DNA from: Ulota crispa
Lineage: Eukaryota > Streptophyta > Bryopsida > Orthotrichales > Orthotrichaceae
Assembly (NCBI GenBank): GCA_963920765.1
Contig: OY987249.1
Span: 15,934,817-15,998,816, forward strand
Reading direction: 5' to 3'
DNA: 64,000 nucleotides
The translations under genes and the position numbers were made by a program. Below the pieces are notes generated by a model. It made no database searches. It was not told the DNA's origin and saw only the letters and a list, made by a program, of their open reading frames with translations. The number at the start of each line of letters is the position of its first letter. Within the stretch, counting starts at the first letter, position 1. Shown here in pieces: positions 22,747-43,415 of this stretch.

Positions 22747-23200
22747 CACTGCGGAGCCCCCACCAAGGAATCACACTCACACCACCTAGCCCTGACTCCG
22801 ACTCCTTTAGAGAGTTTGTTAACAAAATCGTTTCTTCCGGTTTGAACTCCAACGAACTGCAAATGTGTGCTCGGCAGTGCAGCAACCGAGGTTCTCCGCC
22901 GACTGGACCCCGAAATCCTTACCCCAGTTTGCTCTCTTCAGGTATTTTCACCTCATTCAGATTGGATTTAAAACCGTTTGCTTCTTTTGCCTCACCTTGT
23001 TGTTTGTAGTTTGTACCATTGCCACCCCATTCAATGCACCGACAGATTTGAAAATGGGAGTGTTTTGAACCAATGTCTAAGATTTAGTCTTTTTTGGACA
23101 GTCCAATGCGTGCGTGATGGTTTGAATTTTATCGGCGATGGCTCCGTGGGCATGGATGTAATGTGAGGTGTCGGCTACGATCGAAGGATCGATCTGCGCC

Positions 23201-26200
23201 ATGGAGGACGTGCTGGTGATCTCGGCGCCCAGGATTCGTCAGATTGTTGACTACTCGTCGCTCATCGAGAGCCTGCGCGGTGCGTATGCCGACGGTCCGT
23301 CGTTCTCCGTCCCACCGACGACGCGCCATGCGATTTTCTCGTCCAGATCCAAAGTGACGGCGACGGAGGAGGCGTCGTCTTCGTTGCCGTCGCTCTTGCT
23401 CATGCCCGCGTGGGGCGCCGCTCCCAAGTGCCCGTACCTTCTCGTCAAGAGCGTCACCGTGTTCCCCGAAAATGGTTCCAAGGGCCTGCCGACTGTCACG
23501 GGCACATACGTGCTCTCGTCCTTGGAAACTGGTAATATTCTCTACCCCACTTGTGCTATTTCATGTTTGTCTTTTAGCATCACCAATGTGCCCTCTCTAG
23601 ATTCTCTGGTTTAAGTTTCCCAAGTTTTGAAGGAAGAGAAATATTTCTCATCTGGTCTGTTTTAATTTTGTGAAGGGAAGTTTCATGAATAACCCTAAAG
23701 TTTTGCAATAATATTTACATAGATACCCCTGCTTTTTCAGAAATTACACAAACCTTGTACCCGCTGCTTGTGCTATTTCATGTCTGGCTTTATCATTACG
23801 ATAGGTGTACCCATACCTCCCCAGTCCCCAATGTTGCACCCTACATTTCAGGTGTTCATTATACACTCTTGAACCCAAAGGGCATAAGTGAATCCTACCA
23901 CATGTTGATTGCTAAGCTAATTTGGGAGGGTTAGAATTGGGACCCTCAAGTGCTATTATAGGTACACATCCAAGTAGTTTCAGGGTTAATTTAGAGTTGC
24001 TTTTAGGGTCCTATGAGCTGTAACTTTATCCTTTAATATAAAATATTCTACAACACTTTTTTCACAAAAATAACATTCCATGATAGCTTGTTGAAAAACT
24101 AATGCTACATATTTTTTTCCTGAATTTTTAAAGACCTTGCGGTACCCCAAACCCTTAAACGCAAATTCTTAAACGCTACGGTATGGGTCTGTCTACGTTA
24201 CCAATGCGTCCTCTCTACATTCTCTGGTTTAGGTTTCCCAACTTTTAAAATTGAAAAAAAAGGAAATGTTTCTCATCTGGCCTGTTCTAATTTCTTGAAT
24301 TCTTGTGCAAGGATGCAAAGTTCGGTTACTTATTCAAAGTTGACAGAAAGTGCTTGAGTTCTTATGTGTTTACTCTCAGATAACTTGTAACATTTTCTCT
24401 GTGAACAAGATTTAGTGTGTTGCATTTAGGTGCATATGTCAATCAAGTACGTCCACCTTACACACGAGTAACAGAGAAGACTCTTGTGGCCGACCGTGCT
24501 TACAAAAACCTAAGTTCAATGAGACCCTCGTGTATAAGAGTTTCAGTGCATTAACCCTAAGCAGGATGATAGCCTCATGGTCAATCCAGCCTTTCACAAA
24601 CCCCACACGCTTTGGTTTCGAGGGTTTTTGGTGTTCAAAGATCACTCTAAAAGTTCTGATCGGAGACCTGAAACCATTGAGTGAGTACGGTGGATAAACG
24701 TCAATGGGGTTTTAGGGTTTCCAGACCCTCCTTTATAAGAGTTTCATTAACCCTAAGCAGGATGATAGCCTAGTAGTCGATCCAACCTTTTATAAACCCC
24801 ACACGCTCTGGTGTCGAGGGTTTTTGGTCTTCGATGATCACTCTAAAAGTCCTGATCGAAGACCTGAAACCATGTTAGATATCTGTCAATGGGGTTTTAG
24901 GGTTTCCAGACCGTCGTTTATAAGAGTCTCATTACATCAGCCCTAAGCAGGATGATAGCCTCATGGTCAACCCAGCCTTTGATAATCCCCACACGTTCTG
25001 GCTTTGAGGGTTTTTGGTCTTCAAAGATCACTCCAAAGTCCTGATCGGAGACCTGGAACCATTGAGTGAGTATGTGGGAGATCTGTCAATGGGATTTTAG
25101 GGTTTCCTGATCCAGTGTCAGTGGATGCGGAAACAGGAAAGCAATTAGCGGTAATGGACGGAACAGAGCTCATCCTGTGGAGAACGGCGTGCACATCAGC
25201 GTTAGCAGCGGATTACCTAGCAAGGAAGGATTCCAAAGTGATGGTCATGGTGGGCGCAGGCGCATTAGCGCCACACCTCATCAACGCGCACCTCACGATT
25301 CGACCGTCACTGGAGACGGTGCTCGTCTGGAACCGCACGCACACCCGAGCGCTCCAACTGGTGGAGCACCTGAAACTCTCGCCGCTCTTGAGAGGAAAGG
25401 TAGGAACAACACCCATAACTGTTAGTGTCCCCATAACTGTCACCTCTACAATCTTGGAAAATCTGTAGAAGTAAATAGCTGTAATTACAAGGATGTACAA
25501 CATGTGAACATGAAACCTTAGTGTTGGTTATGGGTACAATGGCAGTTTGCTCTTCAAAAAACTCACAACTTATTCTCAAATCTTATCTCTATAATATTCT
25601 TATTTCTATCAGCTAAGTAGTTGCAAGCAAAGTATGATTGAAAAATTTGTGATTGGCCGTGGGCCAAAAGGCAAAGTTAAAATTTTGATGGGCATTGTGT
25701 GTGAAAGGACATATTTGGTGAAACCCATTGAATCTTTTTCCAACTTGAATTTGGAATTCACATATAAAAGGGTGGAGAGGGAGATGAAGAGGCAAATTGA
25801 TTTGAATCTAAAATTAAATTTGATTGTATATTATCCCATGAATTTTTTTGTGTGAATAGGGGGTGGCATGGGGATAGCATGGGTACAATAGCCTTCCGCT
25901 AGAATGGCAGGTGCACGAGTCCACTAGTATCCAAATAACACATTTGAAAGTGCAAAATCATTACATTTTTGTTAGCTAACAGGACCCTATAATTTGCTAG
26001 ATGTTTATTAATAGTCATCATGTTCAAAACCCTTAACCCCTAAATGCCCAAGGCACCCAATTTGGGTGTTTGCAAAACTTTGAAGATGAATAAAATCTTA
26101 TAAAATCACTATTTTTGGTATTTTCTTTTGAACACAAGTTTGTTTTGAAGTCTACTTTTAGTATCAAAAATTTGATTTTGAAAATGAATATTCATGATTT

Positions 26201-27578
26201 TTCTATTCAAGATTTTGTACAAGGGTGTCTATTGCAATCTTGAGTTTTCTAGTGTTGGAAGATCTTGAAAACAAGCCTCAAATACACTAGAGTTTGGAGA
26301 AATATCCGCATTAGAAATTCATTTAAAAAAAATTTAGGAGTAGATTTTGAAAAACTTAAATTGGTTGAGGTTAAACATGTAATGACCTAAAACCTCATAT
26401 TTTTTGATGACCAACTTTTTAAATTTGACATGTGAAACAAGGATTAGAAAATTTCAAGTCACTTTTGCAGTTTTAACACCCTCATGTTCAAACGTTATAA
26501 TCTTTCAAACTATAAGTGATATTGTTGTGGTTTCTTTTTCCATGTAATCTCTAAGATGTCAAGTTTGAATTTGTATGGTTACAATTTAAAAAAACTTGAT
26601 GAGATTTATGAAAAGGTTGGTTGATTATTCACTTTTCTGAAAATGCCAAGGAGTTCAGAAAGGCCTTGTGCATTTAGGGGTTAAGAACCAACAAGCCTTG
26701 TTTTTAGCATCTCTTACACATGGTTCCTACAATTTCAGTAATTTGGACTTTGAAAAATCTTTGTGAACAATTGCTTGCAGCTAGAACCTTGAAATTGATG
26801 CCAATATTTCTGGTTTCCACTTCCTAACTTACAATATTTTTTTCAAAGTTAGTCAATTGTTTTACCTACTCCAAAACCCTTATTTCCACACTTATGGGTG
26901 CGCCTACCTTATACATACTATGTCCTATGGTTGCTTGGTCGTTTAAGGGTTAAACTAACACTTATGGGTGTTCCTACCTAAAGCGAATATCGGCGGTGAC
27001 GGATTTGGAAGCGGCAGTGCGAGCAGGGGACGTCATCTCGTGCGCAACGATGTCGAGAGAGCCTCTGGTGCGCGGGGAGTGGTTACACGCAGGGGCGCAC
27101 GTGGACCTGGTGGGGTCGTTCACTCCGTCCATGCGAGAATGCGACGACGAGTGCATTCGGAGGTGCCGCATTCTGGTGGACTCGGCTCACGCCCTCGACT
27201 GCTCCGGCGATCTGGTGCAACCTCTGCAGGCCAGTGATCTTTAAACTGGCTAAAATTTCGCAAGATTGCTACCAAAAAATTTATGCAACTAAAAATCTTG
27301 TGAAGTTTATAATTTGAAATCTTTAGCTTTTTAGCAGTGTTTTTAGCCACTTGAGCTAAAATTGAAAATCATATTTGGGATCACTGCTGCAGGCCATGGT
27401 GGTGCCCAGAGACCACGTGGCTGGCACGCTGGCGGAGCTGGTGCAGGGCGTGAGTGCAGAGTTGGTGCAGGGGCTTCGGAGCTTTGATGATGAAGTCACG
27501 CTTTTTAAGAGCGTGGGGTGCACTGTTGGTGACTTGGCAGCTGCCCAGGTTGTCTTTGAGAATTTTAAAACTGGTTAG
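23201..27578 (+). CDS. Ornithine cyclodeaminase/mu-crystallin family protein, SARD4-like (four exons)
   Basis: Proposed exons 23201-23531, 25137-25399, 26984-27229 and 27393-27578 join in phase to about 341 codons, the usual family length. Exon 1 carries the N-terminal substrate region (LLVKSVTVFPENGSKGLPTV). Exon 2 carries LAVMDGTEL and the Rossmann nucleotide-binding motif VMVGAGALAPHLINAH. Exon 3 has DVISCATMSREPLVRGEW and HVDLVGSF. Exon 4 ends with LFKSVGCTVGDLAAAQ, the conserved KSVG block. In Arabidopsis the plant member SARD4 acts as a plastid reductase of dehydropipecolate in pipecolic-acid synthesis for systemic immunity; that role here is inference. I chose the ATG before EDVLVISAP. 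Oddities: exon 1 can also join an acceptor at 25115 in the same phase, adding seven residues; intron 3 needs a GC donor; introns 2 and 3 are transposon-bounded. All exons are free of stops, so the gene looks functional if spliced this way. Confidence 0.85.
23674..23752. repeat. Half copy of the foldback at 5241-5554, in intron 1
   Basis: GGGAAGTTTCATG, CCCTAAAGTTTTGCAA and CATAGATACCCCTGCTTTTTCAGAAATT match the left arm of the 5.2-kb foldback. The other arm is missing, so this is a truncated insertion inside intron 1 of the SARD4-like gene. Confidence 0.65.
24520..25107. repeat. Three tandem ~190-200-bp units at the end of intron 1
   Basis: Each unit contains TATAAGAGT(T/C)TCA, CCTAAGCAGGATGATAGCC, CCCCACACG(C/T)T(T/C)TGG, GAGGGTTTTTGG and TGATCG(A/G)AGACCTG, and ends with (T/A)TTTTAGGGTTTCC. 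Units start at about 24520, 24721 and 24908. The third ends at 25107, eight bases before the pyrimidine-favoured acceptor at 25115. The array therefore abuts exon 2 and its unit end may contribute the branch/acceptor region. Confidence 0.85.
26033..26685. mobile_element. TTAA-bounded MITE, family A copy nested in intron 2
   Basis: TTAACCCCTAAATGCCCAAGG at the left, CCTTGTGCATTTAGGGGTTAA at the right, TTAA on both sides, 653 bp. The interior is the inverse of 551-1186 and 9804-10447. It lies inside the MITE that forms intron 2, immediately after AAAACCC, a position that is continuous in the intact 314-bp copies, so it inserted later. Confidence 0.8.
26690..26917. repeat. Fragment of a second MITE nested in intron 2
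   Basis: The segment from CAACAAGCCTTGTTTTTAGC to CTTATGGGTGCGCCTACCTTA is the inverse of 45001-45225 and ends in the CCTACCT-type terminus. The next 35 bp to GTCGTTTAAGGGTTAA resemble the right end of the element at 28127-28365. The piece of intron between 26690 and 26954 is thus a mosaic of two further families. Confidence 0.6.
27232..27386. mobile_element. 155-bp hAT-type MITE that constitutes intron 3
   Basis: Starts CAGTGATC and ends GATCACTG, an 8-bp perfect terminal inverted repeat of the hAT type, flanked on both sides by the identical octamer CTGCAGGC (27224-27231 and 27387-27394), the 8-bp target duplication known for hAT elements. Removing the element plus one octamer restores an uninterrupted reading frame (LVQPLQAMVVPRDH), which is also what splicing from 27230 (GC) to 27392 (AG) yields. 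Unspliced, translation stops at a TAA four codons after the junction. Non-coding. Confidence 0.93.
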
Positions 27579-27589
27579 TTTTGTAACAT

Positions 27590-28035
27590 TCTCTCTCACA
27601 CACACACACAGCTTGTTAAAAATTGGATTTTTGGTGAAATTCTATTTGGTAAGAGTTTGGTGGATTTTTTGTGAAGATGTGGGGGAAAGTTTGGAACTTT
27701 CGTGACACACACACACAACTTTTAAAAAATGGATTTTTGGTGAATTTTTTGTGAAGATATGGTGAAAGTTTGAAACTATCGTGACACGCACACACAACTT
27801 GTAAGAAATGGATTTTTGGTGAAATTTTTTGGTAAGAATTTGGTGGATTTCTTGTGAAGATACGGTGAAAGTTTGAAACTTTCGTGACAGTTTCGGAATT
27901 TGACCCCACACACACATAACCTTTAAACAATGGATATTTGGTGAAAATTTTGGAGTTTGGTGCATTTTGTGAAAGTGTGGTGAAAGTTTGAAACTTTCGT
28001 GAGAGTTCGGGAATTTGGAATTTTTTTTTTTCAGG
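27590..28035. repeat. Degenerate ~100-bp tandem repeat downstream of the SARD4-like gene
   Basis: Four to five imperfect units, each with a CACACACACA(A/G)CTT run, ATGGATTTTTGGTGAA, TGTGAAGATNNGGTGAAAGTTTG and AACTNTCGTGA. It begins about 15 bp after the stop codon, so it is likely in the 3' untranslated region or just beyond. Minus-strand open frames across it are artefacts. Confidence 0.85.
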
Positions 28036-28126
28036 GGCAGAATTGCTCAGTTTACCTTGCTTTGTAAGTTCCATGGGGTTGAGAGTGTTGAGCTATTGCC
28101 AGGAGAGGCTTTGTTCGCACTGGTAT

Positions 28127-28365
28127 TTAACCCTTAAACGTCTAAGACTTTTTTGTGACCAGTAAAATACAAGGTATTCTTGTGTATTTGGAATGGATCC
28201 ACACTCTTACTGCATTTGAAATCAACAAGGAAGTTGAAATATAGATCAATGTAGTTATAGATCAATGCGGTTCTAATGGGTTTTTTGAAATCCCAAACTG
28301 AAACTTCTTGTTGGTAGGAAAGGCCAATTATACAACAACGTATCCATGGGACGTTTAAGGGTTAG
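28127..28365. mobile_element. TTAA-bounded element, family C
   Basis: TTAACCCTTAAACGTCTAAG at the left and GGGACGTTTAAGGGTTAG at the right; 239 bp. A diverged copy lies at 41073-41338 (shared GGTATTCTTGTGTATTTGGAA-like, CACTCTTACTGCATTTGAAATCAA-like and TTGTTGGTA segments). Confidence 0.65.
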
Positions 28366-28611
28366 TTAGTGTTCCTCCTAAGTCCTATGTACAATAAAAG
28401 GATTTTCTGATATTGTTTGTGTTATTTAAGGGAGCATACTAGTATCTTGGAGGGGGTTGGATTACACTTTCTGATATTGCTTTTCCATCTTCGCGTGGCT
28501 CTGAATCGAGTAGCAATCTCGGTTGTCAATTTTAGAGTAGTTGAATGAACATGCTCTGATGTAGGAGGTGGTGAAAGCAGCTTTTGTAAGGTTTAATGCA
28601 GCTTTTTGGAA

Positions 28612-29020
28612 GGGGAAATTACAAATAGGGGCATGAAAACGTAAAATATTACAAATAGGGGCACAATTTTTTTTGAAGTTGTAATTTTTTGTAATTTTTT
28701 TGGTTTGGACATTGGTTGACTTAGACACATCACATTAAATGTTAGCTACCTTTCAAAAAACTTAAAGGTCTCTCCAAATCAAGCCTAAATAAAGAAATGT
28801 TAGTATAGGAAATGGTAATTTTTGAAAATTTTTAATTTTTTTGGAAGTTAGCTAACATTTAATGTGATGTGTCTAAACTTGTCAACCAATGTCAAAACCA
28901 AAAAAACATTACAAAAATTTACAACTTTTTTTGAAACTATGCCCCTATTTGTAATTATTTTGAAACCGCGCCCTTATTTGTAATATTTTATGATTTCATG
29001 CTCCTATTTGTAATTTCCCC
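28612..29020. mobile_element. Foldback MITE with 9-bp target duplication (Mutator-like)
   Basis: The ends GGGGAAATTACAAATAGGGG and CTATTTGTAATTTCCCC are inverted repeats extending inward over most of the element (GGTTGACTTAGACACATCAC pairs with GTGATGTGTCTAAACTTGTC). It is flanked by a perfect 9-bp direct repeat, TTTTTGGAA, at 28603-28611 and 29021-29029. Nine-base duplications are typical of Mutator-like elements. Non-coding, 409 bp. Confidence 0.88.
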
Positions 29021-29974
29021 TTTTTGGAAGTTGAGTACACCTTTCAACAATTTTTGGTAAATTTTTCTTGAAAGGAAAATGGAAATTGCATTTATTTTAT
29101 TTTTGTTCATTTTTTTGAACTCGTGGTATTAAGTTAGTTGTGAATTTCTGAAGTTGGAATGGTACAAGGCTTTGAAAGGTATTCTCACCTTGAAATGTTT
29201 ACCATCAACACGTTGAAAAATCCAATATGTACTTTTGTGTTGGAGGATGGTGTTAAAGCCCAAATTATTGAAACATCTACCACCTTATACCTTGTGGGGA
29301 AGGCAGTTTTGTTGATAAAGAAAAAAGCAGAATTCCTATTTGGAGTTTGTTGAAAAATCAAGTCTAAAATGTAAAATGCGTTAAAATTGATTTTAACTTG
29401 GCAATTTTTGTATGAATGGTTTTGAAAGTTTAGAAATCATGTTCCAAGTGTTGAATTAAGCAAACTTCTAAAATTTTGTTACTTCAACATTCGAGTGTGC
29501 ATTTTTGGAGGTTTATTTCAAATGCAATAAATTGGAGAGAAGTTGCTTATATACTACAGTAGTGTTATAAGTTCTGCATAGAATGAGCTACAAGAATTTG
29601 TTTTGTACTTCCAAAATCTTAAAAAAATTTGCAAGGATGTGATTGAAGATTGTCTTACATTTTAGAATAGAAATCTAATTATAATATTGTATGATAAACC
29701 TATCGAACATCATAATTTAAACATTACAATTTTTATTTCAAATTTGATGTGATTTTAAAAATACAATGTTGCAAGATTTGGTATGAATATAACGTTAGTA
29801 AGCAAGTAGTCTTAAGGTTTAGAATGCTGAAATGTCTTTCGTAATGATTTTCAGTTAATAATTGAAGCTAAAAAAGTTTTTGTATTAGGCAGTTGCGCTT
29901 TGAAATTTGCGTTGTATGCTCATTTGCAAAGTTGTGATCATGGATTTGGAAGGAGGGTCATTAATTTTCAAGTA

Positions 29975-30288
29975 AGGTAGGAACACCCATAAGCGTCAGT
30001 GTCCCCATAACCGTCACCTCTAAAATCTTGGAAAATCTGTGGAAGTGAATAGATGTAATGATAAGGATGTACAACACGTGAACATGAAATCTTGAAAGTG
30101 GTTATGGGTGCAATGGTAATTTGCACTTTAAAAATTCACAACTTATTCTCACAGTATCCAAATAATACATTCAAAAGTGCAAACTCAATATTTTTCTATT
30201 CCTAATAAGATCTTGTAATTTGCTAGTTGTTTATTGATACTCATCATGTTGAAAACCCTTGGTTTGACGTTTATGGGTGCTCCTACCT
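29975..30288. mobile_element. 314-bp MITE with AGGTAGG ends, intact copy 1
   Basis: AGGTAGGAACACCCATAA at the left and TTATGGGTGCTCCTACCT at the right, flanked by TA on both sides. Exactly the same length as the copy at 43102-43415 and nearly identical to it. It is the reference for recognising intron 2 of the SARD4-like gene as a member of this family. A TA duplication fits a Tc1/mariner-like origin, which is inference. Confidence 0.88.
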
Positions 30289-30363
30289 TAACAACAATAA
30301 ACACTAAAGGTTCATAAGTGGTTGTTTCCCAATTTTGTACACAAAAGTTGCCATTATGCATTA

Positions 30364-43062: not shown

Positions 43063-43101
43063 AGTAAAAAAAAAAAAAAAAAAAAAACCCCTATTACTCT
43101 A

Positions 43102-43415
43102 AGGTAGGAACACCCATAAGCGTCTATGTCCCTATAACCGTCACCTCTGAAATTTTGGAAAATTTATGGAAATGAATAGATGTAATTACAAGGATGTACA
43201 ACATGTGAACATGAAATCTTGAAAGTGGTTATGAGTGCAATGGCAATTTGCTCTTTAAAAATTCACAACTTATTCTCATAGTATCCAAATAATACATTTG
43301 AAAATGCAAACTCAACATTTTTCTGTTCCTAATAGGATCCTATAATTTGCTAGTTGTTAATTGATACTCATCATGTTGAAAACCCTTAGTTTGACGTTTA
43401 TGGGTGCTCCTACCT
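43102..43415. mobile_element. 314-bp MITE with AGGTAGG ends, intact copy 2
   Basis: Same ends, same TA flanks and same length as 29975-30288, differing at scattered positions only (for example CTATGTCCCTATAACCG against CAGTGTCCCCATAACCG). A poly-A tract of about 22 bp lies just to its left. Confidence 0.88.

Follow-up and report, generated by a model that had tools for sequence, protein, structure and literature searches.

What precedents are there for a transposon that is removed from a plant gene as an intron? The maize elements Ds and Ds1, of the hAT group, are reportedly spliced from exons, in cases that go under the names of Dennis 1988, Wessler 1991 and Giroux 1994 and are said to be single mutant alleles of a crop. 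A general model starts from AGGT targets, in which the duplicated AGGT provides both splice sites and the coding sequence stays unchanged; the accessible part of that account puts the number of transposon-made introns in Oryza, Drosophila, Oikopleura and Zea at 35 (PMC3443670). Introner families, in turn, are defined as at least four introns which are alike up to both boundaries, lie in non-homologous genes, are annotated as introns or seen to be spliced, and were gained recently, and some of them take their splice sites from the target site duplication or the insertion site; the survey searched 3,325 genomes, and its accessible part reports none in land plants (PMC9860276). For the moss Physcomitrella, the accessible text describes chiefly intron loss (PMC3729371). 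Titles and abstract openings of open-licence PubMed Central yielded no report of Introners in land plants. Here we characterize a gene of the moss Ulota crispa, located in a stretch of 64,000 nucleotides referred to as the window, in which a short transposon appears to constitute the third intron.

Results

Structure and identity of the host gene

Open frames and comparison with homologues delineate four exons on the + strand: exon 1 (23201..23531), with GT directly after it; exon 2 (25137..25399), at whose junction the sequences of two relatives, P0005 and P0010, start; exon 3 (26984..27229), ending in CTGCAG at its 3' side; and exon 4 (27393..27578), including the stop codon at 27576-27578. 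Once the introns are joined out, the frame reads through 341 codons without a stop or frameshift. The product matches PF02423 (E 3.3e-53, 181 bits against a curated cut-off of 24), and on its sequence the gene is assigned to the ornithine cyclodeaminase/mu-crystallin family, 'SARD4-like' being the label chosen in a first-pass annotation of this DNA. Among the best 120 of 7,918 matches, a sequence of the moss Ceratodon purpureus (72%) comes closest of those with a name, and liverworts and a lycophyte follow at greater distance. A genome-wide protein search of the 275-Mb assembly that contains the window (157 contigs) returned these four exons only, as the single gene of its kind found; a paralogue was rejected on this basis. 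A fifth exon modelled at 28035 was dropped, as exon 4 reaches its stop codon in the way the homologues do. Downstream of the stop, 27580-28034 holds degenerate repeat blocks with CACACACA and GTGAAAGTTTG motifs, and an Rfam scan of 23000-29000 at gathering thresholds gave no match.

A hAT-like MITE as putative intron 3

The first-pass annotation had described intron 3, a numbering that is correct in the four-exon model, as a 155-bp hAT MITE with a perfect octamer on both sides. Direct reading, a script check and matches to other family members place this element, with 30% GC, at 27232..27386 (+), between two target duplications CTGCAGGC at 27224..27231 and 27387..27394 (both +) that match in 8/8 letters; the ends CAGTGATC...GATCACTG form an 8/8 inverted match. 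The direct repeat stretches to 10 nt, CTGCAGGCCA, because the element and the downstream exon both start with CA. On its own, the octamer CAGTGATC is seen twice in the window against 1.28 times expected, which is not significant; the MITE is judged real, and chance octamers are rejected, because a dispersed family exists, and not because of the octamer count.

The GC of the left duplication (27230-27231) would act as the donor, and the AG of the right one (27391-27392) as the acceptor, of a GC-AG intron of 163 nt (27230..27392, +), whose splicing we infer from the sequence and the restored frame. Deletion of precisely this segment yields, as had been claimed, the exact pre-insertion coding sequence in a script check, and the joined product of exons 3 and 4 is gapless at the junction in the alignment to homologues; with the intron kept in, the frame reads ASDL and then a stop. 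The element contributes its CAGT (27232-27235) as donor positions +3 to +6, such that the donor string CAG|GCCAGT shares 7/9 letters with CAGGTAAGT. Counting against this assignment, position +3 is C, not A, and GC donors make up 1.2% of plant introns in the accessible part of one account (PMC6310983). The MITE could instead be removed at other boundaries, for example from a donor CA|GTGATC at 27234, which would lead to an altered protein or to isoforms; the presence of a GT four letters inside (27234-27235) and the minority status of GC donors speak for it. However, this donor is a poor match to the consensus, and used with the same acceptor it leaves 4 extra nucleotides and shifts the frame, whereas the exact GC-AG product is gapless and AGGC targets recur in a transporter and an APS kinase gene. 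We therefore regard such boundaries as very unlikely.

In a predicted RNA fold of 27224-27392 (z -2.88, with 2/200 shuffles folding equally well), both CTGCAG copies and the terminal inverted repeats (TIRs) pair in one stem that brackets the splice sites. A stem of this kind might just as well mask the splice sites as draw them close to each other.

A dispersed family

The genome search for further copies, which the first-pass annotation had proposed, uncovered a family: the element has at least 42 matches including itself (40 of 1194 candidates scored), the other 41 at 81-93% identity, and members are 155-164 bp long. The flanking octamers agree at 8/8 positions in 10 and at 7/8 in 3 of 43 BLAST rows from 39 loci, with the automatic placement of ends being off in some rows. 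Patterns for the element ends with up to 3 mismatches gave 107 left and 181 right ends, in overlapping sets, and 0 matches with reversed control patterns. The TIRs of hAT elements are short and begin with CAG or TAG. Those of the family (CAGTGATC/CAGCGATC) follow this rule, the target duplication has the 8 bp of hAT elements, and the members are short, non-coding, TIR-bearing and present in high copy; by these sequence features, the family is a non-autonomous hAT-like MITE. Many copies sit outside recognisable exons, and a minority are apparent introns.

Further genes carrying the element as an apparent intron

The search started from the at least 42 copies and continued with patterns for element ends adjoining AGGY. 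We read all 18 loci of one pattern set, 5 of the 23 places of a second and 14 places of a third, the latter taken among the matches listed for a pattern with 200 matches and 16 in its reversed control. The same arrangement with an intact joined frame was found in five further, unrelated host genes and in one gene with a FAR1 domain. An NFD4-type MFS transporter (L036) has an apparent GC-AG intron of 344 nt consisting of a tandem double MITE, with TCGCAGGC, again TCGCAGGC, and then GACGCAGGC. In a glycinamide ribonucleotide synthetase gene (GARS, L068), the apparent intron is of the GT-AG type and 151 nt long, reading CCAG|GTCAGCGATC...GGGATTCCAG|GG, with the right end eroded. An RmlB-like dehydratase gene (L087+L091; GT-AG, 1,296 nt) has CTGCAGGT perfect on both sides of a reversed element that holds inserted DNA; inserted DNA is also found within the copy of an APS kinase gene (L129+L116; GC-AG, 1,470 nt; ATGCAGGC/GTGCAGGC), while the copy in an ankyrin protein gene (L130+L115; GT-AG, 505 nt) is flanked by CTCCAGGT plus four extra letters and by CTCTAGGT. 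Nested DNA breaks the family similarity near one end in three of these copies, those of the RmlB-like, APS kinase and ankyrin genes. The FAR1-domain gene, which is probably a transposon's own, occurs in two copies (L119:295-480 and L118:296-480), with the MITE as an apparent intron of 171 nt.

The host genes differ in Pfam family (PF02423, PF01071/PF02843, PF23262, PF16363, PF01583 and ankyrin), and in four of the five others the junction is spanned by a Pfam match or a PDB alignment. The products of the GARS, RmlB-like and APS kinase genes are gapless at the junction against chains 1gso, 1bxk and 3uie, and the NFD4_C match of the transporter (residues 11-128) covers the junction at residue 119. 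In the ankyrin gene, all Pfam matches fall on the upstream side of the junction, for which the support consists of the open frame and the 7/8 duplication with its four extra letters.

The best solved relative of the RmlB-like protein is 1bxk, a bacterial dTDP-glucose 4,6-dehydratase; the gene was possibly acquired horizontally and carries an apparent MITE intron. Among other places read, L070, L077, L079, L083, L084 and L085 are donor-like pattern matches without a MITE body by eye, L122 is plain coding sequence, and reading of L120 and L123-L128 revealed no convincing exon junction.

Relatives at the insertion sites

Fourteen homologues of the SARD4-like gene were fetched, and in five of them (P0005, P0007, P0010, P0011 and P0015) the frame is continuous through the sites of introns 2 and 3 to its end. 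P0005 and P0010 show a few foreign residues right where exon 2 starts, P0011 shows a longer foreign stretch there, and P0007 and P0015 start at a methionine inside exon 2; P0010 represents a set of ten contigs, none of them longer than 9,359 bases. The simplest reading of these sequences would be genomic DNA with intron 1 and without introns 2 and 3, the alternative being transcripts with a retained intron. The transporter exon is likewise in one piece in P0244 (contig of 169,680 bases), P0246 (27,273), P0248 (6,855) and P0242 (4,690). P0124 crosses the MITE site of the GARS gene without a break, and its last residues resemble an intron; P0121 and P0122 are possibly transcripts. In relatives, the insertion appears to be missing for three of the six genes, these being the three compared (SARD4-like, GARS and transporter).

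These comparisons also bear on the possibility that the intron is old and that the MITE landed inside it or at its edge. Such events do occur in this genome, as copies of the repeat of intron 2 lie inside an existing thioredoxin intron. However, the element is separated from the splice sites by duplicated target letters alone, and the frames of relatives cross the position in the SARD4-like gene as they do in the transporter gene, leaving an old intron with hardly any credibility.

Donor composition and AGGY targets

Are the splice sites of the different genes built in the same way? At the end of the left duplication, AG precedes GC in the SARD4-like, transporter and APS kinase genes and GT in the GARS, RmlB-like and ankyrin genes. 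Donor positions +3 to +6 then come from the element, as CAGT or CAGC, in five of the six; in the ankyrin copy four letters intervene, and the donor reads GTCGGT. The acceptor would be provided by the right duplication. In hand-entered strings, 8 letters match CAGGTAAGT in the RmlB-like gene and 7 in each of the SARD4-like, transporter, GARS, APS kinase and ankyrin genes, with 9 and 7 for the two FAR1-gene copies and 6 each for the first two introns of the SARD4-like gene. In the FAR1-gene copy L119 the donor reads GTAAGT, in place of the GTCAGT or GTCAGC that is typical of the family; this single case would fit an improvement of donors after insertion.

In a post hoc comparison judged partly by eye, coding exons contain 7 of the 13 copies whose duplication has AGGY at positions 5-8, versus 0 of 11 other copies (Fisher p 0.006). 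With L072, L074 and L076 added to the non-AGGY set, its count becomes 0/14 (p 0.002), or 1/14 (p 0.013) when the doubtful L074 is counted, which by eye adjoins a RING-like frame for 7 residues beyond the junction. The seven coding cases are the six host genes plus the FAR1 gene counted once. The non-coding cases, assigned by eye or from the joined frame, are L086, L088 and L089, in the AGGY set without an established right duplication, L090, without a matching one, L117, and L121, whose left side reads AGGG; L045 was first flagged as AGGY and then excluded, its octamers agreeing at 4/8 positions only. Of the 11 non-AGGY copies, which have a clear duplication, the scan covered seven, whose joined frames gave no Pfam match; the joined frames of the other four have fewer than 90 residues. 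The suggested rule is that the hAT insertions which survive in exons are those at targets ending in AGGY, because there the CAGT of the element end completes the donor.

A second apparently transposon-made intron in the same gene

Intron 2 (25400..26983, +; GT-AG) appears to be another intron of transposon origin, its source being a TIR family other than the hAT-like MITE. It is bounded by the ends of a high-copy repeat family, which has at least 40 scored matches among 1821 candidates; the element, AGGTAGGAAC...GTTCCTACCT (25398..26979, +), is flanked by AA at 25396-25397 and 26980-26981, and removal of the intron restores GGAAAGCGA exactly in a script check. The donor AG|GTAGG lies inside the TIR, and the flank gives the acceptor AG. 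A Tc1/mariner-like element would be expected to have a TA target duplication. Other family copies have the left end TAAGG (L016, L019) and mostly the right end CCTTA, where TA could be duplication or TIR, and the SARD4-like copy has AA on both sides. Intron 2 is probably the older one, because further repeats are nested in it, at 26033..26684 (+; 73-87% matches elsewhere in the window) and 26681..26912 (+; up to 97% at other loci). The claim for this family draws on one gene, because no further intron was recognised at the 21 of 26 distinct pattern places that were read; for six of the 21, the part that was read contained no left end, and the one of these that was extended, L092, lies in the existing thioredoxin intron.

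At L092, L113 and L114, the repeat of intron 2 extends as far as the acceptor of that thioredoxin intron, and repeat and flank together form the present 3' splice site. In the window, more copies of the repeat lie at 29973-30290 and 43100-43415.

Condition of the SARD4-like gene

The MITE might also be a disabling mutation in a dead or dying allele, with the splice sites being coincidental. It differs from its sister copy L002 by 4 private substitutions and 2 private indels, and departs from a 30-copy majority sequence at 9/154 positions; with only 4 private substitutions, it may be young. Exon 4 is, moreover, slightly more changed at conserved columns, with 2 of 18 otherwise invariant ones altered against 0-1 of 15-17 in other sequences, while exon 3 (2/34) is inside their range of 0-3. 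However, the 341 codons are free of stops and frameshifts, and for 1,023 bp of unconstrained sequence the probability of the observed 0 indels would be about 0.006 at the MITE indel rate, a rate taken from two events. The nested repeats entered intron 2 while the exons remained intact, and five other host genes are alike, including enzymes of purine and sulfate metabolism. Mosses are mainly haploid, and if this applies here, a null allele would be unsheltered. A disabled gene thus appears quite improbable.

Discussion

What scenario accounts for these observations? With a probability that we put at roughly 0.87, a hAT-like MITE inserted in an exon of the SARD4-like gene and is removed as a GC-AG intron, the same having happened in five or more further host genes. 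A non-autonomous element would have landed in the exon, and its 8-bp duplication would have placed a sequence ending in AGGC on either side. The left copy, together with the element's CAGT, would then form the donor CAG|GCCAGT, and the right copy would end the intron in CTGCAG, such that the AT-rich element is presumably excised, leaving the mRNA as it was. Other members of the family would have done likewise where targets ended in AGGC or AGGT, and the family thereby behaves as an Introner family. From the sequences we infer that the spliceosome recognises these sites and that splicing, by hiding the insertions, has let them persist. The birth of an intron from a DNA transposon, as proposed in the first-pass annotation, is thus supported by the sequence tests; the perfect duplication, which it took as a sign of youth, is weak evidence of it, since the majority of its letters serve coding or splicing.

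More tentatively, and with odds somewhat short of even, the genome may harbour a land-plant Introner system, in which two unrelated transposon families make introns in ordinary genes, one through an 8-bp duplication plus its own CAGT and the other through a donor AG|GTAGG in each TIR, with some copies tuned later, as in the GTAAGT of the FAR1 gene, and dozens of lineage-specific introns so derived. Intron birth could be tested in a land plant with a moss that has a multi-gene family, perfect duplications and uninterrupted exons in its relatives.

How does this family relate to known systems? The novelty in a plant gene that the first-pass annotation had seen has to be divided: hAT-made plant introns are precedented, the closest precedent being maize Ds spliced from exons of mutant alleles, and what is new is the occurrence of an Introner-like family in a land plant rather than the mechanism itself. 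With maize Ds and Ds1, the moss family shares a hAT element in a plant exon that is removed as an intron, as its sequence implies; unlike them, it forms a natural multi-gene set, and the exons of relatives are continuous. It goes beyond the AGGT-target model in also using AGGC targets, in three of the six host genes, and the terminal CAGT of the hAT element that finishes the donor is a moss feature absent from the accessible part of that account (PMC3443670). BLAST of the intron bodies to the family sequence finds similar introns in six host genes, above the four of the Introner definition, and their distinct Pfam families mark these genes as non-homologous. In common with Introners, as far as the accessible text describes them, are near-identical introns in unrelated genes, the marks of target duplication and TIR, insertion in either orientation, splice sites drawn from the duplication or insertion site, and GC donors, which reach up to 50% in some Introner families (PMC9860276). 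Unlike the families described there, however, the moss family resides in a land plant, its TIR and target duplication jointly make the donor, and many of its copies are outside recognisable exons, a minority being apparent introns, whereas those families were defined from introns (PMC9860276).
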